NCBI GenBank assembly: GCA_903830425.1
Contig: CAIKTR010000187.1
Span: forward strand, 1 to 43,720
Source: an uncultured Opitutia bacterium
Lineage (GTDB): Bacteria; Verrucomicrobiota; Verrucomicrobiia; Opitutales; Opitutaceae
DNA length: 43,720 nucleotides
Reading direction: 5' to 3'
In this document: positions 1 through 13,347 of the stretch, in pieces
How the letters are laid out: each line of letters starts with the position of its first letter
Position numbering within the stretch: the stretch's first letter is position 1
Translations under genes and position numbers: made by a program
Notes under the pieces: generated by a model
What the model was told of the DNA's origin: nothing
The model's database searches: none
The model's input: the letters and a program-made list of their open reading frames with translations, nothing else

Positions 1-1031
1 AGGTTTCCGTGCAGGCCCACCTTCGGCACGGGCGAGTTGTTGAACGGGGTCGGGGCCAGGTCCTGCAGCATGGGATCCACCGGCCCGACGAGAATGATGG
101 CGCCCGCGAAGGGCTTGAAAAAATCCTGCGCCGCCGCCCGCACCTCGGGCCGCGCGTCCGTCAGGTCCCGCTGGTACAGCAGCACGTCGGCCAGGCTGGT
201 CCGCGGGTTGAGTTCCGGGTTTTCCCAGCGCGAGAACCAGTTGACCTCGAGCAGCTGCCGCTCGCGCAGCGGGATCGCCACCGCCACCGTGCCGTCGGGC
301 CGGACCAGCCGCAGGGTGTCCGGCGACACCCGCACCGCTTCGTCCGGCAGGCCGAGCGCGATCAGGACGAGCTTGAGGGACAGGTGGTAGTAGGTCGGGT
401 TGGGCGTCTCCGCAAACAGCGGCACCCAGCGCGGCACCTCGTTGCCGCCGTATTCGGTGTCCACGTCAATCAGGCCGACCGTCCCATAGGTCGGGCCGAT
501 CAGCGGGTCCTGCGGCAGCTCCGGCAGGTCGTGCTTGGTCCGGTCGGTCCAGCCTTTCCGCCACAGGGGGAAATTGCGCTGCCCCTCCTGCAGGTAGGCC
601 TGCCCGCCGCTGTACTGGGCGCCGAGGACGATCTCCGGATGCCGGTAGATGACCTTGCCGAATTCCAGGTTCCGCCGCCGCAGCTCGGCCCGGGACACCA
701 TCTTCGAGGCGCCGTAGTCGGAAAACACAAAGTCGAACCCGATCGCCTTGGCCTGCCCCACCTCCAGGAGCGTCTGCGCGGCCAGGGCGAAATCGCCGCG
801 GTTCCAGGGCCGCTCCCCCATCTCCTGGATCGCCCGCGTGTCCACATCCACGTACCGGACCTTGATCGGGGCCGCCAGCTCGCCGCGGTACCGGTAGCGC
901 AGCTTCAGCGTCTGGTTCTCCAGCACGTCCAGCACCCCGAAGTGGCCCAGCACGCACCAGACCGCCGGGATCGTCAGCAGCAGCAGCCAGCGCAGCCACG
1001 ACAGGGCGGTTTTCTTTTTCTGCGGGGGCAC
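1..1031 (-). CDS. CHASE2-domain sensor protein (3' end outside the window)
   Basis: About 343 codons are visible and the C-terminus lies beyond position 1. The start is GTG at 1029-1031; no better in-frame start or clear ribosome binding site was found. A basic N-terminus (PPQKKKTALSWLRW) is followed by one hydrophobic segment (about residues 13-28), then a large predicted extracytoplasmic region. The pattern VRYVDVDTRAIQEMGERPW, then DFALAAQTLLEVGQAKAIGF and FDFVFSDYG, is typical of CHASE2 sensor domains, as is the later FAGAIILVGPVDP. CHASE2 proteins usually end in an adenylate/guanylate cyclase, kinase or phosphodiesterase output domain, which cannot be seen here. It follows the FecR-domain gene on the same strand, a pairing common in bacteria; a shared signalling role is inferred. 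Domain call firm, output unknown. Confidence 0.8.
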   Translation of the reverse strand, partial: MPPQKKKTALSWLRWLLLLTIPAVWCVLGHFGVLDVLENQTLKLRYRYRGELAAPIKVRYVDVDTRAIQEMGERPWNRGDFALAAQTLLEVGQAKAIGFDFVFSDYGASKMVSRAELRRRNLEFGKVIYRHPEIVLGAQYSGGQAYLQEGQRNFPLWRKGWTDRTKHDLPELPQDPLIGPTYGTVGLIDVDTEYGGNEVPRWVPLFAETPNPTYYHLSLKLVLIALGLPDEAVRVSPDTLRLVRPDGTVAVAIPLRERQLLEVNWFSRWENPELNPRTSLADVLLYQRDLTDARPEVRAAAQDFFKPFAGAIILVGPVDPMLQDLAPTPFNNSPVPKVGLHGN

Positions 1032-1110
1032 GGCGGCCGAAACTACGGGGCGGACCGGATGAATGAAAGCAGATTTGCCCCGGCCCCGGGGCCCCGGACC
1101 GGCGGGCCCC

Positions 1111-1148
1111 GTAAACACAAGCGCCCGGATCGGGATCGATCCGGGCGC
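1111..1148 (-). terminator. Intrinsic terminator after the FecR gene
   Basis: Perfect 12-bp inverted repeat: arms 1121-1132 and 1137-1148 with a 4-base loop. Read on the minus strand it is followed by TTGTGTTTAC (1120-1111). It lies 16 bases past the FecR stop and before the CHASE2 start. The T tract is interrupted, so termination may be partial. Confidence 0.7.
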
Positions 1149-1164
1149 TCGGGAAAAGCGGCGA

Positions 1165-2049
1165 CTACTTGCCGTCGCCGGGCGTCGTGTTGTCCGGCGG
1201 GGCCGGCGGGGCCGGCGGCGGCTCCGGCGCCGGCGGCGGGGCCGGCGTGTTGGTGTTCGTGCTCACCGAGGTGAAGATCACCGCGGCGTTGGACGTCACG
1301 ATCTCCTGCGCCGCCACGGCAATCGCCGCCTGCGTCACCGGCGGGATGTCCTGCGTCACCACCGTGGGGGCCGCCGTCACCGTCACCACCCCGGTCTTCG
1401 CATCCACCGTCACCTCCACCGTCACCACGACTTCCTGGCCGGTCGGCACGGGCGTGGTCACCGCCGTGGTCCCGGTCAGGATGACCTCGCCCTCCGCCGT
1501 GCTGAGCGAGAAGAACGCCTTGCCCGAGCTGTCGGGCCGAAACACGATGCGGAAGGTGGTGCCGCGGATGCCGGCGGCGCCCACCGGGGTGTTGACGGTG
1601 AAGGACGAGCCGTTGGGGCCGTCCTTGCGGAGATGCTTGACGTTGCCGACGAGCTCCCCGCGCACCAGGGCGAGCTGCGTGACCGAGGTGGACGGCTCAT
1701 CCGTGGCCGTGGCCATCGAATAGGAGGTCGAGAACGGATCCTGCAGGAACTGCTCGATCGCGAGCGTGGAATCCGGGGCGAGGTTGATGGTCGCGCCGTT
1801 GGAGAACACCAGGATGACGCTCGAGTTCTGGGCCGTCGTCACGACGTAGTTCTGGGCGATCGCATCGTTGTCCTTCAGCTCGCGCTGGGAATGGTCCGCC
1901 GTGTTGACCGCGGTGACGGTGCCCTTGACCTTGGCCGCGACGATGCGGCCGGCCACCCGGCCTTGCGGCACCTGGGCGGTGGCGGCCGTGGCCGTCAGCA
2001 GCGCCGCTAAACCACACAGCCGCATCCACGATAAAAATTTGGTTCGCAT
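1165..2049 (-). CDS. FecR-domain secreted protein
   Basis: 294 residues from ATG at 2047-2049, chosen because it gives a proper signal peptide (MRTKFLSWMRLC, a hydrophobic stretch, then cleavage near ATAQVPQ). A longer in-frame start at 2130 would overlap the upstream gene and has no signal sequence. The FecR domain covers about residues 35-175: GRIVAAKVKGTVTAVN, VVTTAQNSSVILVFSNGATI and VNTPVGAAGIRGTTFRIVF, the last holding the family RGT motif. The rest is Val/Thr-rich and ends in a Pro/Ala-rich tail (about residues 265-294). Unlike FecR anti-sigma proteins of iron transport there is no cytoplasmic sigma-binding domain, so it is probably a periplasmic or surface FecR protein. It starts 13 bases after the O-antigen-ligase gene and precedes the CHASE2 gene. 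Confidence 0.85.
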   Translation of the reverse strand: MRTKFLSWMRLCGLAALLTATAATAQVPQGRVAGRIVAAKVKGTVTAVNTADHSQRELKDNDAIAQNYVVTTAQNSSVILVFSNGATINLAPDSTLAIEQFLQDPFSTSYSMATATDEPSTSVTQLALVRGELVGNVKHLRKDGPNGSSFTVNTPVGAAGIRGTTFRIVFRPDSSGKAFFSLSTAEGEVILTGTTAVTTPVPTGQEVVVTVEVTVDAKTGVVTVTAAPTVVTQDIPPVTQAAIAVAAQEIVTSNAAVIFTSVSTNTNTPAPPPAPEPPPAPPAPPDNTTPGDGK

Positions 2050-5817: not shown

Positions 5818-6672
5818 ATGGACTCCCCCGACACCCCCGCCGCGGCCCCCGCCCACCCCCTCCGCTGGTCCGCCCTCACCGACCGCGGCCGCTTCCGGCC
5901 CAACAACGAGGACTCCTTTCTCGCCCTCACCTTCGACGGCCATGAGGTCCGCTTCCTCGGCAAGAACGGCCAGTCCTCGCTCGCGGGCACCGACTTCGTC
6001 TTCGCGGTCAGCGATGGCATGGGCGGGGCGAAGTCCGGCGAGTTCGCCAGCCGCATCGTGGTCGAGCGCATCACCCGCCTCCTGCCCCGCGCCTTCCACA
6101 TGTCGGCGGCCGGCATCTCCAGCGGGTTCGCCGACATCCTCGCGGAGCTGTTCACCTCCATCCACGTCGACCTGCTCAAGCTCGGCTACGCCTACGAGGA
6201 GTGCGCCGGCATGGGCGCCACCCTCAGCCTGGGCTGGTTCACGCCCGACTGGATGTATTTCGCCCACATCGGCGACAGCCGGATCTACTACCTCCCCCAC
6301 GCCGGCGGGCTCACCCAGCTCACCCACGACCACAGCTACGTGGGCGGCCTGCGGCGCAGCGGCCAGATCAACGAGCGCGAGGCCCGCACCCACCCCCGCC
6401 GCAACGCCCTGCAGCAGGCCCTCGGCGCCGGCCACCAGTTCATGGAGCCGCACATCGGCGCCGTCGGCCACCAGCCCGGCGACCGCTTCCTGCTCTGCTC
6501 CGACGGCATCACCGACGGCCTGTGGGACCACCAGCTCGAGGATCTCATCCGCCATCCCGCCCCCGCCGCCGCCGACCAGTCCCCCGCCCAGCGGCTCGTC
6601 CACGAGGCCGTCCAGGCCTCCGGCCGGGACAACGCCACGGCCGTGGTGGTCGAGCTGATGCCCCGGGCGTGA
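5818..6672 (+). CDS. PP2C-family serine/threonine protein phosphatase
   Basis: 284 residues from ATG at 5818. A soluble metal-dependent phosphatase with all main PP2C motifs: DRGRFRPNNEDSF (about residue 21), VSDGMGGAKSGEFAS (about 64), AHIGDSRIYYL (about 145), LCSDGITDGLWD (about 222) and the final GRDNATAVVVEL. The Asp residues of SDGMGG, SDGITD and GRDN bind the two metal ions. No transmembrane or extra domain is present, so this is a stand-alone cytoplasmic enzyme of the PrpC/Stp type. It starts 5 bases after the minimal kinase gene; its likely substrate set is whatever that kinase phosphorylates (inference). The stop overlaps a possible GTG start of the next gene. Confidence 0.93.
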   Translation: MDSPDTPAAAPAHPLRWSALTDRGRFRPNNEDSFLALTFDGHEVRFLGKNGQSSLAGTDFVFAVSDGMGGAKSGEFASRIVVERITRLLPRAFHMSAAGISSGFADILAELFTSIHVDLLKLGYAYEECAGMGATLSLGWFTPDWMYFAHIGDSRIYYLPHAGGLTQLTHDHSYVGGLRRSGQINEREARTHPRRNALQQALGAGHQFMEPHIGAVGHQPGDRFLLCSDGITDGLWDHQLEDLIRHPAPAAADQSPAQRLVHEAVQASGRDNATAVVVELMPRA

Positions 6673-6692
6673 CGCCGCCGCCCCGCCGCGTC

Positions 6693-7049
6693 ATGGGCCT
6701 GCTCTTCGTCTACGGCACGCTCCAGCGCGGGTGCACCAACCACGCCCAGCTCGCCGGCCAGGCCTGGGTCGGCGCGGCCCGCACCCCGCCCGGCTTCCGG
6801 CTCTACCAGCTCGAGGGCTACCCCGGGCTCGTCGCCCACCCCGACGACCGCACCGGCGTCTCCGGCGAGGTCTGGTCGGTGGACGCCGCCGGCCTGGAAC
6901 GGCTCGACCGCTTCGAGGGCGTCGCCGAGGGCCTCTACCGCCGCGCCCCGCTGCCCCTGCTCCCGCCGTTTGCCGGCCAGGTCGTGGAAACCTACTGGTA
7001 CGCCCGCAGCGTCGCGGGCCGGGCCGACCTCGGGGGGCGCTGGACCTAG
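6693..7049 (+). CDS. Gamma-glutamylcyclotransferase-like (AIG2/GGCT fold) protein
   Basis: 118 residues from ATG at 6693 (MGLLFVYGTLQRGCTNH). A GTG at 6669, overlapping the PP2C stop, would add eight residues. The N-terminal VYGTLQRG is the substrate-loop signature of the GGCT/AIG2 superfamily, followed by GFRLYQLEGYPGLV, GEVWSVDAAGLERLDRFEG and a C-terminal VETYWYA. Family members cyclise gamma-glutamyl amines or peptides to 5-oxoproline. The conserved catalytic Glu region corresponds to the RLDRFEGVAEGLYRR segment. It is the last gene of the kinase/phosphatase run and converges on dnaX, 25 bases apart. Specific substrate unknown. Confidence 0.85.
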   Translation: MGLLFVYGTLQRGCTNHAQLAGQAWVGAARTPPGFRLYQLEGYPGLVAHPDDRTGVSGEVWSVDAAGLERLDRFEGVAEGLYRRAPLPLLPPFAGQVVETYWYARSVAGRADLGGRWT

Positions 7050-7074: not shown

Positions 7075-7479
7075 CTACTCCTTCAGCGCCGCCTTGGGCA
7101 CGCGCTTGACGGCGATGAACTTCGCCCGGAACAGCTCGTCCATCAGCTCGCGCGCCGCCGCCGGGATCCGCTGCACCAGCTCGTCCAGCGCGGGCAAAGT
7201 GCCCTTGGTCTCCAGCTCCTGCACCGCCTCCACCGCCCGGGTCGCCGCCACCGGCGCCCCCTGCTCGCGTTGCTCGGCGAAAAAGGCCACCTCGGCGGTC
7301 TCGTCCGGCCAGACATTGGCCCCGTTCTCCAGCGCGGCCGCCCCGACCGGCTCCGCCACCACCGCCTCGTCGGCCGCACCCCCGCCGGCGGGGGCCGGCT
7401 CCGGCGTGGCCGGCGCCACGATCCCGACGTCCACCGCCTGCCCGGCCGCCAGCCGCGCCTCCAGCCGGTCAATCAGTCC
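7075..7479 (-). CDS. dnaX: C-terminal (tau) extension of DnaX reached by -1 slippage
   Basis: This -1 frame opens at the end of the A10 run in dnaX and runs 134 codons to a stop at 7075-7077. It has no good start of its own near the junction. The product begins [19 protein letters not shown], passes through a Pro/Ala/Gly-rich linker (about residues 27-55), and ends in a compact helical segment containing [20 protein letters not shown] and [18 protein letters not shown]. Linker plus C-terminal domain is the architecture of the tau-specific part of DnaX, which in E. coli contacts DnaB and the polymerase alpha subunit. Joined to the upstream frame it would give a 517-residue tau. Sequence similarity of this tail to known tau domains is too weak to see by eye. 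Confidence 0.75.
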
Positions 7480-8627
7480 TTTTTTTTTTCGCCGTCGGCG
7501 CCGGCGGCCGGGGATTCGTCGGCGAGCGCCGCGAGTTCCTTGATCAGGCTGTCGATCGCCCGGGCCCGGCTGGCCTCGACCGCCTTCAGCAGCGTGACTT
7601 CAAAGTTGATCTTCTCCGCCAGCCCCAGCTTCACCGCGCCCTCGCCCTCGCGCAGCCCGTCCAGCAGCCGCGTGATCTGCTCCGTCGTGAGCACCGTGCC
7701 CCCCAGCGCGCCGCTGCGGCCGCCCTGCGCAATCGCGTCCAGCAGCGCCGTGCGCACCTGGGCCTGCAGGTCCGACAGCAGCCGCACCAGGTCGCGGCCG
7801 CTGGCATCACACTCGTCCACGATCGCCACGATCTGCCGGTGGTCGCCGGCCGCCAGCGCCGCCGCCAGCGCCGCGATCTTGTCGGCCGCCGCCAGCCCGT
7901 ACACGTCCAGCACGTCGGGCTCCGAGATCTCGCCGCCGCAGAACGAAATCATCTGGTCGAGGATCGACTGCGCGTCCCGCATGCCGCCGTCCGCCAGCCG
8001 CGCGATGCAGGCCAGCGCCGCGTCGGTGACCGTGATCTGCTCCGCCCGCGCGATCCGCTGCAGCCGCTCCACGATCAGCGCCGGCGGGATGGGCCGGAGG
8101 TCGAAGCGCTGGCAGCGCGAGACGATCGTCGGCAGCACCTTCTGCGGGTCGGTCGTCGCAAAGACAAATTTCACGTGCGCCGGCGGCTCCTCCAGCGTCT
8201 TGAGCAGCGCGTTGAACGCCTGCACCGAGAGCATGTGCACCTCGTCGATGATGTAGACCTTGAACTTCCCCTGCGCCGGCGCGTAGCGGACCGTGTCGCG
8301 GAGGTCGCGGACCTGGTCGACGCCGTTGTTCGACGCGCCGTCGATCTCGACCACGTCCAGGTGCGTGCCGTCGGCGATCGCCTGGCAGGCGGGATCGTCC
8401 ACGTCGAAGTCCGCCCGCGGGCCGCCGGTGCAGTTCAGGGCCTTGGCAAAGAGCCGGGCGAGCGAGGTCTTGCCCGTGCCGCGCGGCCCCACGAACAGGT
8501 AGGCGTGGGCGATCCGCCCCCGGGTGATCGCGTTTTTCAGCGTGCGCACGACGTGATCCTGGCCGACGACGTCGTCAAACGTCTGCGACCGCCACTTGCG
8601 CGCGATGACTTGGTAACCCTTGGACAC
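7473..8627 (-). CDS. dnaX: DNA polymerase III subunit gamma/tau (short form in frame 0)
   Basis: 384 residues from GTG at 8625-8627 ([20 protein letters not shown]), the usual DnaX N-terminus; longer in-frame starts run into the SRP RNA gene. AAA+ clamp-loader ATPase: Walker [21 protein letters not shown] (about residue 43), a shortened zinc-module region ([18 protein letters not shown], with fewer Cys than the usual four), Walker [11 protein letters not shown], sensor 1 FVFATTD, the SRC arginine finger region ([13 protein letters not shown]) and sensor 2 [13 protein letters not shown]. Domain III follows to about residue 370. Frame 0 ends GEKKKD-stop immediately after ten A residues, a gamma-sized product; the -1 frame continues (see 7075-7479). 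Upstream lies the SRP RNA, as in Bacillus where scr neighbours dnaX. Confidence 0.95.
7479..7490 (-). other. Slippery A10 site in dnaX (frameshift or transcriptional slippage)
   Basis: Minus strand reads GAAAAAAAAAAGG, with ten A at 7489-7480, six bases before the frame-0 TGA (7475-7473). It contains A AAA AAG, the known dnaX slip heptamer. A one-base backward slip, or one extra A in the mRNA, opens 134 further codons. No Shine-Dalgarno-like stimulator is seen just upstream; a possible short GC stem (CCGGC with GCCGG) lies downstream. Confidence 0.75.
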
Positions 8628-8751
8628 TGGGGCCAAGACCAAATCCGAAATCCCAAAGCGCAAATCAAAACTGACCGGCCCGCCTCCCGGGCCCGGCGGC
8701 CGCGGGCGGCGCCGGAGGGCGCCCGCGCATCCGGCGGCCGGCCGGCGCGAT

Positions 8752-8860
8752 AAAAAAAGGTGGCCAGGCACTCCACGGCACTGGGAGGACGTCGTTACCG
8801 TTGCTGCCTTCCGGCCCTGGCGGAGTTCACGCGCCTGCCCATGCATGGCACCTGGCCGGT
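8752..8860 (-). ncRNA. ffs: Bacterial small signal recognition particle RNA (4.5S type)
   Basis: The minus strand carries the SRP domain IV core CCAGGGCCGGAAGGCAGCAA at 8820-8801, including the GGAA tetraloop and the asymmetric loop recognised by Ffh. Flanks pair as a long hairpin: GGCCAGG at 8857-8851 with CCTGGCC at 8768-8762. The stem is followed by seven T (8758-8752), a terminator. The 5' end is estimated from pairing, good to a few bases. The RNA, with Ffh and FtsY, targets nascent membrane proteins. It sits just upstream of dnaX on the same strand. Confidence 0.9.
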
Positions 8861-10228: not shown

Positions 10229-10508
10229 GGGAAAATTTGGACCAACCCGGGCACAACACGCAAGACGCGCCGCCGCCCGCCCGGTTACACCCGCGCCCCG
10301 CCGGGCTCCTTGACAGCCCCCGGAGCCGCTCCCTTACTTCCCCCCGCTGCCATGCGTTTCCTGTCTCCGGCCCTCCGACTTACCTCGGCGCACGATCTCC
10401 GAATCGCCGCCTAGCGGCCGGTCGTGCGTTGTCGGGTTGGTTTTCCGCCGTCTCCGGGATGGCGTCGCCGGTTTTTCCCCTTCATCCTTTTCCGCCTGAT
10501 TCGCTGCC

Positions 10509-12173
10509 ATGCAACCTGCTCCCATTTCCAAATACCGCCCGTTCCCGCCCGTCGACCTGCCCCACCGCCAGTGGCCCGGCCGCACCCTCCGCCAGGCCCC
10601 CCGCTGGTGCTCCGTCGACCTCCGCGACGGCAACCAGGCCCTCGCCCAGCCCATGAGCGTCGAGGAGAAGCTCGAGTACTTCGACCTGCTGGTGAAGATC
10701 GGCTTCCAGGAGATCGAGATCGGCTTCCCCTCCGCCTCCCAGACCGAGTTCGATTTCTGCCGCCGGCTCATCACCGAGCAGCGCATCCCCGCCGCGGTCG
10801 CCATCCAGGTCCTCTGCCCGTGCCGCGCGGACCTCATCGGCCGCTCGCTCGAGGCCCTGCGCGGCGCGGACCGCGTCATCTTCCACCTCTATAACTCGAC
10901 CTCGCCCAAGCAGCGCGAATACGTGTTCCACGCCACCCCGGCCGACACCGTCCGCCTCGCCACCGAGGGCGTCGCCAGCCTCAAGGCCCAGATGGCCCCG
11001 CTCGTCGCCGCCGGCACCCGCCTGCAGCTGGAGTATTCCCCCGAGAGCTTCACCAGCACCGAGCTCAGCTTCGCCCTCGAGATCTGCGAGGCCGTCACCG
11101 ACACCTGGGGCCCCACCCCCGCCCACCCGATCATCCTCAACCTGCCCGCCACCGTCGAGTACGCCACCCCCAACATCCACGCCGACCAGATCGAGTGGAT
11201 GTGCACGCACCTGACCCGCCGCGACTGCACCCTCATCTCCCTCCACACCCACAACGACCGCGGCACCGGCATCGCCGCCACCGAGCTCGGGCTCCTCGCC
11301 GGCGCCGACCGCGTCGAGGGCACCCTCTTCGGCAACGGCGAGCGCACCGGCAACCTCGACCTCGTCACCCTCGGCCTCAACCTCTACACCCACGGCATCC
11401 ACCCCGGCCTCGACTTCAGCGACCTCAACGGGATCCGCGAGGTCTACGAGCGCTGCACCAAGCTCGAGGTCCCCGCCCGCGCCCCCTACGCCGGGGAACT
11501 CGTCTTCACCGCCTTCAGCGGCTCGCACCAGGACGCGATCAAGAAGTCCTGGCCCCACCAGCGGCCGGACCGCCCGTGGGACGTCCTCTACATCCCGATC
11601 GACCCCGCCGACCTCGGCCGCAGCTACCAGGCCATCATCCGCATCAACAGCCAGTCCGGCAAGGGCGGCGTCGCCTACGTGCTCGAGCACTCCTTCGGCT
11701 ACACGCTGCCCAAGCTCATGCACAAGGAGATCGGCCGCATCATCAACGACCTCGCCGACGCCACCGGCCGCGAGCTCACCGCCGCGGAGATCCACGCCGC
11801 CTTCCAGGCCGAATACCTCGCGCGCACCGCCCCCGTCGTGCTCGTCTCGTGCAAGACCACCGAGCACGACAGCAGCGTGCACTGCGAGGCCGAGCTCACG
11901 CTCCACGGCCAGCCCCACCGGCTCACCGCCGAGGGCAACGGCCCGATCGACGCCTTCGTCCGCGCCCTCGGCGCCACCCCCCTCCCGAAGTTCGAGGTCC
12001 TCAGCTACGCCGAGCACTCCCTCGGCAAGGGCGCCGAGGCCCGCGCCGTGTCCTACATCCAGATCAAGACCGAGCGCGGCCTCGGCCTGTTCGGCGCCGG
12101 CATCGACACCAACATCGAGCTCGCCACCATCAAGGCCGTCGTCAGCGCCCTCAACCGCGCCCTCGCCCGGTAA
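10509..12173 (+). CDS. leuA: 2-isopropylmalate synthase
   Basis: 554 residues from ATG at 10509. First committed step of leucine synthesis: 2-oxoisovalerate plus acetyl-CoA. The TIM-barrel catalytic domain shows SVDLRDGNQALAQPM (about residue 35), EIEIGFPSASQTEFDF, the metal-binding HTHNDRGTG (about 247) and GNGERTGNLDLVTLGLNL (about 275). The C-terminal part (about residues 430-554) resembles the LeuA dimer/leucine-feedback domain (AELTLHGQPHRLTAEGNGPI, ALGATPLPKFEVLSYAEH). N-terminal YRPFPPVDLPHRQWPG and the overall length match the longer type-2 LeuA of actinobacteria and yeast. No leuBCD nearby, and no T-box or leader peptide was recognised upstream. Confidence 0.95.
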   Translation: MQPAPISKYRPFPPVDLPHRQWPGRTLRQAPRWCSVDLRDGNQALAQPMSVEEKLEYFDLLVKIGFQEIEIGFPSASQTEFDFCRRLITEQRIPAAVAIQVLCPCRADLIGRSLEALRGADRVIFHLYNSTSPKQREYVFHATPADTVRLATEGVASLKAQMAPLVAAGTRLQLEYSPESFTSTELSFALEICEAVTDTWGPTPAHPIILNLPATVEYATPNIHADQIEWMCTHLTRRDCTLISLHTHNDRGTGIAATELGLLAGADRVEGTLFGNGERTGNLDLVTLGLNLYTHGIHPGLDFSDLNGIREVYERCTKLEVPARAPYAGELVFTAFSGSHQDAIKKSWPHQRPDRPWDVLYIPIDPADLGRSYQAIIRINSQSGKGGVAYVLEHSFGYTLPKLMHKEIGRIINDLADATGRELTAAEIHAAFQAEYLARTAPVVLVSCKTTEHDSSVHCEAELTLHGQPHRLTAEGNGPIDAFVRALGATPLPKFEVLSYAEHSLGKGAEARAVSYIQIKTERGLGLFGAGIDTNIELATIKAVVSALNRALAR

Positions 12174-12191
12174 CCCCGGCCCGCCCGCCTC

Positions 12192-13310
12192 ATGCCCAGC
12201 CCCCCCGCGCGGCCGCCGCTCACCGGCGAGACCCTCGACTCGCTCACCGCCCGCCTCCAGGCCCAGGGCGAGCCGGCCTTCCGCGCCCGCCAGATCCTCG
12301 AGTGGGTCTACAAGCGCCGCGTCACCTCCTGGGACGGGATGACCAACCTCTCCAAGCCGCTCCGCGCCTGGCTCGCCGACACGTTCGACCTCCTGCCCGC
12401 CACCCTCGTGCTCAACCGGCACTCGGAGGACGTCACCGACAAGCTCCTCCTCGAGCTGCGCGACCGCTCCCTGATCGAGACCGTCATCATCCGCGCCCCC
12501 CAGGACGGCGTCGGCCTCGACCACTCGCGCAAGACCATCTGCATCTCCACCCAGGTCGGCTGCGCCATGGGCTGCGTGTTCTGCGCCAGCGGCCTCGCCG
12601 GCCTCAAGCGCAACCTGTCCGCCGGCGAGATCGTCGCCCAGCTGCTCCTCGTCTGCCACAGCGAGGACGCCCGCACGCCCCGGGCCCGCCTGGAGCTGGC
12701 CTCGTTCGACAACCTCGTCGTCATGGGCATGGGCGAGCCGCTCGCCAACTACGACGCGCTCATCCTCGCCCTCACCATCCTCAACGCCGAGTGGGGCCTC
12801 GGCTTCGGCGCCCGCCGCATCACCATCTCCACCAGCGGCCTCGTGCCCAAGATCCTCCAGCTCGCCGAGGAGCCCCTCGCCTTCCGCCTCGCGATCTCGC
12901 TGCACGGCGCCACCGACGCCGTGCGCGAGCAGATCATGCCCATCAACCGGGCCTACCCCCTCGCCAAGCTGCTGCCGGCCGTCCGCGCCTTCTCCGCCAC
13001 CCACGGCCGCATGGTCACGCTCGAGTTCATCCTGATCGCGGACGTGAACGACTCCCTCGAGCAGGCCAAGCTGCTGCGCGCCATCGCCCTCGACCTGCAC
13101 GCGCACGTCAACCTCATCCCCTACAACACCGTCGAGGGCCTGCCGTGGCAGCGCCCGTCGATCACCCGCCAGGAGCGCTTCGCCGACGTCCTGCGCGCGG
13201 CCCGCATTTCCGTGACGCTCCGCCGCGAAAAGGGGCACGACATCAACGCCGCCTGCGGCCAGCTCCGCCTCCAGACCGAAACCGCGCGCGCCGCCGCCAC
13301 CCCCGCCTAG
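12192..13310 (+). CDS. rlmN: Dual-specificity 23S rRNA/tRNA adenosine-C2 methyltransferase RlmN
   Basis: 372 residues from ATG at 12192, 18 bases after leuA. Radical SAM enzyme that methylates C2 of A2503 in 23S rRNA and A37 in some tRNAs. The iron-sulfur cluster motif is CAMGCVFC (about residue 125), preceded by KTICISTQVG; SAM-binding VVMGMGEPLANYDA follows, then ITISTSGLVPKILQLAE and AISLHGATDAVREQIMPINR. The second catalytic cysteine is in INAACGQLR near the C-terminus (about residue 355). Length is normal for the family. It may be co-transcribed with leuA because of the short gap. Confidence 0.96.
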   Translation: MPSPPARPPLTGETLDSLTARLQAQGEPAFRARQILEWVYKRRVTSWDGMTNLSKPLRAWLADTFDLLPATLVLNRHSEDVTDKLLLELRDRSLIETVIIRAPQDGVGLDHSRKTICISTQVGCAMGCVFCASGLAGLKRNLSAGEIVAQLLLVCHSEDARTPRARLELASFDNLVVMGMGEPLANYDALILALTILNAEWGLGFGARRITISTSGLVPKILQLAEEPLAFRLAISLHGATDAVREQIMPINRAYPLAKLLPAVRAFSATHGRMVTLEFILIADVNDSLEQAKLLRAIALDLHAHVNLIPYNTVEGLPWQRPSITRQERFADVLRAARISVTLRREKGHDINAACGQLRLQTETARAAATPA

Positions 13311-13347
13311 CCCGGGCACGGAGCTCTCCGTCCGCCGCGGCCCCGCG

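Follow-up and report, generated by a model that had tools for sequence, protein, structure and literature searches.

The dnaX gene lies on the minus strand of the window (the whole stretch of 43,720 nucleotides analyzed here, from a draft genome of 3.5 Mb and 254 contigs), and a run of ten A's (A10) stands where its reading would pass from one frame to another. The features of the locus are these:

7473..8627, minus strand: dnaX frame 0, encoding a gamma-sized product of 384 aa, with a predicted GTG start (TIGR02397 and Pfam matches)
7480..7489, minus strand: A10 slip site, read in frame 0 as GAA AAA AAA AAG and containing A_AAA_AAG
7473..7475, minus strand: frame-0 stop TGA that ends gamma (sequence)
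7469..7471, minus strand: +1-frame TGA, one base beyond the frame-0 stop, closing the third frame (sequence)
7078..7479, minus strand: −1-frame tail of 134 codons, a tau-specific linker followed by a conserved C-terminal segment (pN/pS, hhalign)
7075..7077, minus strand: tau-frame stop TAG (sequence)
8759..8857, minus strand: gene for SRP RNA, immediately upstream of dnaX (RF00169, 65.1 bits), given as context and outside the slip system

Frame 0 matches TIGR02397 at 412 bits (cut-off 250) and contains the Pfam domains DNA_pol3_delta2, DNAX_ATPase_lid and DNA_pol3_gamma3. At the slip site the minus strand reads ...GAC GGC GAA AAA AAA AAG GAC TGA, such that the frame-0 stop lies two codons past the A10 and gamma, counted from the GTG at 8627, has 384 residues; one extra A, or a −1 shift at the run, gives a tau of 517 residues. 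A first-pass annotation of this DNA had noticed the dnaX A10 with its two frames, and that observation is confirmed: the two product sizes, the short form as the templated default, the −1 frame open for 134 codons from the run to the TAG at 7077–7075, and the heptamer A_AAA_AAG in phase are all as it described. One detail is corrected, in that the stop was placed six bases after the run and the TGA in fact begins four bases and ends seven bases past it.

The nearest named relatives identified by dnaX search are four Opitutaceae/Opitutae MAGs with 73–79% identity. We note that dnaX is convergent with a plus-strand pair of genes at 5818–7049, the first for a PP2C-type phosphatase and the second gamma-glutamyl cyclotransferase-like, and that two putative long open reading frames elsewhere in the window, 10482–13319 (minus strand, 945 aa) and 9–1274 (plus strand, 421 aa), have no Pfam match at E 0.001.

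Occurrence and length of the A-run

The loci compared here are a non-random and partly hand-picked sample. The 106 family loci comprise the window, 11 other genomes of its genus, 30 best-scoring loci, four from a second search and 60 picked for genus coverage, and were drawn from the 186 of 200 searched family genomes that had a dnaX over the cut-off. The order loci outside the family consist of 24 from the second search and 40 that were picked (94 of 103 order genomes passed the cut-off, family genomes counted in), and the phylum sample of 30 best-scoring and 20 picked loci was reduced by six that the core pattern used here did not find. Runs were sought only in the stretch 255–450 codons past the Walker A motif.

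A run of this length is rare in the genome that carries it. Not even A8 was produced in 100 dinucleotide shuffles of the window, and A10/T10 occurs once in the whole draft genome, at dnaX. The same is true across the genus: each of the 12 genomes compared has exactly one A10, and it is the one at dnaX, even though AAA accounts for only 30% of the Lys codons (547/1841) in the family dnaX cores. An error of sequencing or assembly at the A10, in a gene that is really fused (A11 or A8), might be argued from the proneness of homopolymers to error and from a draft of so many contigs, but when the run-length error that the first-pass annotation had allowed for was looked for, A10 was found to be identical in all 12 genus assemblies and to be shared by 87 of the 105 family loci, one-contig genomes among them (G014, G015, G024, G058, G061). 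We give an error almost no credence; the A10 at dnaX is neither error nor chance, even if some run-length differences among draft assemblies may be consensus errors.

Within the family the run is universal in the genes read. A run of nine or more is present in all 105 readable loci, and also in G006, where a contig break interrupts dnaX and the locus ran off its contig; its A10 was read through L359 and is likewise that of dnaX, bringing the count to 106 of 106. The 105 loci divide into 87 with A10, 16 with A9, one with A11 (L032) and one with A12 (L057); all 103 A10 and A9 loci have the tail in −1, and L032 and L057 have it in frame 0. A frame-0 stop at distance 2 is shared by 90 of the 103 genes with a −1 tail, and the −1 tails are 79–237 codons long (median 134), the shortest being cut by a contig end. 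Three of the four named MAGs have A10 and one has A9. A10 is present in 55 of 61 sampled family genomes, and four of the six without it (G018, G032, G050, G068) have A9 at dnaX. With a run in every gene read and exactly one A10 in 26 of the 61 genomes (in one of the 26, G020, the single A10 is not at dnaX, which has A9), the Opitutaceae present a natural experiment, and RNA-seq of any cultured member would read slippage directly.

In the order outside the family a run of nine or more is found in 58 of 64 loci and is absent from six, and lengths from 9 to 13 occur across the order. Such variation in length might recommend a phase-variation switch, in which replication slippage alters the run, but A10 is constant in all 12 genus genomes and, dnaX being a core replication gene, a subpopulation with tau switched off would presumably be costly; we consider such a switch highly improbable. 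As a separate observation, the dnaX runs of the close order relatives L144, L145, L153, L167, L165 and L282 vary by a single A, an example being A10 in L145 and A11 in L144; such a difference changes the templated product, and may be real or a consensus error.

Farther out the run is less general, with nine or more A's in 15 of 44 readable loci of the phylum sample, a low count since four of the dropped loci (L180, L184, L189, L191) had A9. The first-pass annotation had named related genes with a fused tail and no run as evidence that would speak against its reading. None exists among the 106 family genes, and examples were found farther off: the order genes L151 (A6) and L160 (A8) combine a frame-0 tail with a short run, and 29 of the 44 phylum-sample genes have no run of nine or more in the stretch searched. 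We also note a separate clade outside the order (L181, L194, L300–L303) with A9 or A10 and a longest downstream frame in −1, which may represent an independent origin of the two-frame layout within the phylum.

Coding character and relatives of the tail

Substitution patterns point to a tail that is read as protein. In a set of 14 close relatives that includes the window, the tail frame has a pN/pS of 0.54 (0.36 over the last 50 tail columns), compared with 1.13 and 1.41 for the other two frames. The conserved part comprises approximately the last 45 residues, and the residues LIDRLE, which start directly after the run, are conserved as well. A profile built from −1 tails recovers the fused frame-0 tails of L032 (E 2.3e-16) and L057 (E 9.6e-23) and matches 13 of the 20 frame-0 order genes (for example L147, E 1.7e-11). 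An hhalign comparison of 40 family tails with 13 fused tails gives 98.3% and E 1.2e-14, a result that leans towards a match because the 13 (12 of the 20 frame-0 order genes and L032) were picked after their C-termini had been seen; the family-tail profile search is free of that bias. By these measures selection acts on the tail as coding sequence, and the tail genuinely belongs to DnaX.

Its identification as tau is of a different kind. The first-pass annotation had proposed a comparison with tau domains IV–V; no match of the tail to these domains of E. coli tau, and no meaningful match in Pfam, NCBIfam or PDB sequences, was found, and what the tail does match is the C-terminus of naturally fused DnaX proteins from the same order. 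The name tau is thus given for where the tail lies and for its homology to fused relatives. AlphaFold yields short helices with no confident fold (mean pLDDT 70, pTM 0.24). The tail would act as tau, binding polymerase or helicase. The nine fused tails of the phylum sample were also compared; like the family tails, they finish in a helix-like segment and then F-x-x-x-x-V/I-R, and as the profile comparison gives 0.3% probability and E 0.21, homology between the two is not claimed.

The tail could in principle be a separate cistron expressed by re-initiation, with gamma the sole product of frame 0, and a GTG in the tail frame at 7434 would provide a start. This GTG lies downstream of the conserved LIDRLE, however, and across 107 genes the earliest potential start codon (ATG, GTG or TTG) in the tail frame varies in position, falling within fewer than five codons in six genes and being absent from the first 60 codons in nine. 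As the tail is moreover fused to the core in some relatives, we think a separate cistron very unlikely.

Frames around the run and the nature of the proposed slip

If frame 0 gives gamma and the −1 frame completes tau, the change of frame could occur on the ribosome or in the transcript, a choice that the first-pass annotation had left open. Programmed −1 ribosomal frameshifting of the E. coli type on A_AAA_AAG, with gamma made by default, accords with the window itself, where the heptamer is in the right phase and the frame-0 stop follows directly, a feature that the Atkins 2016 review points out in candidates whose products are reversed. It also accords with the family, in which 103 of 105 loci have the tail in −1; the layout of all 103 is compatible with it. 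The heptamer, however, holds only six A's, and the run is kept at nine or more.

Stimulatory signals of the kind associated with ribosomal frameshifting are not convincingly present at the slip site, either as Shine-Dalgarno (SD) pairing (107 genes) or as a stem-loop (40 genes). A short SD-like motif occurs in the 20 nt before the run in 21 of 107 genes; on average 40% of control stretches pair equally well, with pairing of −6 kcal/mol or stronger being somewhat commoner at the sites (27/107) than in controls (16.7%). The pairing test upholds the first-pass annotation, which had seen no clear upstream SD stimulator. Folding of the downstream 60 nt, computed for 40 of the 107 genes, gives z 0.28 in the window and a median of −0.41, with z of −2 or lower in five of the 40; the stability of these stretches slightly exceeds that of controls (median −22.4 vs −20.4). 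The genome encodes both tRNA-Lys(UUU) and tRNA-Lys(CUU), which also counts against the ribosomal explanation, and the presence of two tRNA-Lys species may bear on the use of slippage in Thermus, according to the Atkins 2016 review.

The frame of the tail is not constant in the order. The frame counts leave out two of the 58 run-bearing order genes, L145 and L150, as their tails reach a contig end, and among the remaining 56 the tail is in −1 in 24, in 0 in 20 and in +1 in 12. The tail profile made 11, 13 and 5 of these assignments respectively, and the longest open frame the rest; over all 180 genes scored, 43 were assigned by longest open frame. Related genes thus require frame 0 or +1, and since some order tails are in +1, a −1 ribosomal shift cannot serve those genes. 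A templated tau frame is found only in L032, L057, the 20 order genes and nine genes of the phylum sample.

These frames have changed repeatedly. The fewest tail-frame changes required are 16 on a quick tree (112 scored rows) and 15 on a FastTree tree (180 genes scored). The quick tree leaves 42 of its 120 inner branches open, omits genes without a run of six or more, and fails to recover the family as one group (six changes); its five run changes are therefore set aside, and the FastTree tree of all 217 genes gives 11 run changes. Two comparisons, L288 with L291 and L296 with L294 and L295, are of well-supported sisters that have different tail frames at equal run length, and run-length errors therefore cannot explain them. 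Repeated changes of frame around a run constitute evolutionary evidence for slippage by RNA polymerase.

Both frames not used by the tail close soon after the run. In the window they do so at TGA codons (7475–7473 and 7471–7469), and closure within 13 codons is seen in 173 of 180 genes, compared with 11.6% of control positions within tails, part of this closure being simply the frame-0 gamma stop. The pattern holds in each group (family 101/105, named MAGs 4/4, order 53/56, phylum sample 15/15), among genes whose frame was set by profile (131/137), and in a set thinned to cores less than 75% identical (43/48, compared with 17.7% of controls). The third, unused frame taken alone closes moderately early, at a median of four codons in 30 thinned representatives (mean control percentile 0.235, Wilcoxon p 6e-5, with relatedness handled by thinning alone), and this early closure of an unused +1 frame also argues against the ribosomal explanation. 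For 18 representatives with a frame-0 tail, the mean percentiles are 0.34 for the −1 frame (p 0.014) and 0.13 for the +1 frame (p 1e-5). In four family genes the +1 frame stays open for more than 13 codons, reaching 81 codons in L035, and conservation of the peptide LID could account in part for the early stops seen in the window's genus.

Taken with the absence of clear stimulators, the maintenance of nine or more A's, the varying tail frame and the early closure of the other frames favor slippage by RNA polymerase over the ribosome, and we consider it probable that dnaX makes two proteins by programmed transcriptional slippage at the conserved run. RNA polymerase would slip on the ten templated A's, generating mRNAs that vary in their number of A's; those with 10 (or 9, 12 or 13) would meet a stop within a few codons and encode gamma of about 384 aa, and those with 11 (or 8 or 14) would be read from the AAA+/collar core on into the −1-frame tail and encode tau of about 517 aa. 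Such slippage is most likely needed for the long form, and both proteins are presumably made and required. The first-pass reading of two forms made at an A-run slip site is supported. Ribosomal frameshifting as the sole source of tau seems unlikely, and the two processes could act together.

A broader proposal, to which we would give just short of an even chance, extends transcriptional slippage to Opitutales dnaX as a whole: the template would leave the reading frame unfixed, and selection would act to hold the run at nine or more while keeping a single tail open and the other two frames closed. The tail frame could then drift between −1, 0 and +1 because slippage by RNA polymerase would supply mRNAs in all three frames.

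Relation to known dnaX recoding

The window dnaX belongs to the two-ORF kind described by Antonov et al. 2013 (PMC3711429), whose set of 17 dnaX genes represented a new structural type in which recoding is needed for tau. Nine of the 17 have ten A's, and transcriptional realignment was favored, with shifts in differing directions for one function being taken as a sign of it. The window gene shares with that type the need for recoding to make tau and the −1 change of frame, and with nine of its members the ten A's, and it has both a frame-0 gamma stop right after the poly-A run and a −1 tau continuation that is conserved as protein. The main text of that paper contains no Opitutus and mentions Verrucomicrobia once, in its genome table, and an Opitutaceae gene may already be among its ten-A genes, whose species list is in the supplement. 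In the literature library searched for dnaX recoding in Opitutaceae or Verrucomicrobia, we found nothing on Opitutaceae. What is added here is the family census, the single A10 per genome in the genus, the frame-closure statistic and the repeated changes of frame in the order.

In the literature consulted, direct measurements of dnaX recoding concern Thermus, where slippage is used, and E. coli, where the ribosome is responsible. The dnaX of Thermus thermophilus (Larsen et al. 2000) likewise has a run of nine or more A's, makes gamma and tau from one gene, and has stops near the run in both non-tau frames, as here; in Thermus, however, tau is in the templated frame and slippage gives gamma, whereas here the templated frame gives gamma. 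E. coli dnaX likewise has A_AAA_AAG, two products and a C-terminal extension in tau, but there tau is read in frame 0 and gamma arises by the shift, such that the polarity here is reversed; it differs too in that no convincing SD or stem-loop signal was found here and both tRNA-Lys species are present. Reversed dnaX genes are mentioned in the Atkins 2016 review, which notes that one nucleotide can swap the roles of the two products. In Shigella mxiE transcriptional slippage is likewise required for the longer product, in a different gene with an unrelated protein and with a U run in the mRNA instead of A's. The recoding literature consulted includes PMC3711429, PMC5009743 and PMC1088944.

According to Antonov et al. 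2013, none of the 17 frameshifts was annotated, and in genomes such as those examined here the annotation of dnaX probably gives a short protein that lacks the tail. At the other end of the gene, the mechanical open reading frame 7473–8846 extends back across the SRP RNA gene, and because of this overlap automatic annotation may place the dnaX start too early.
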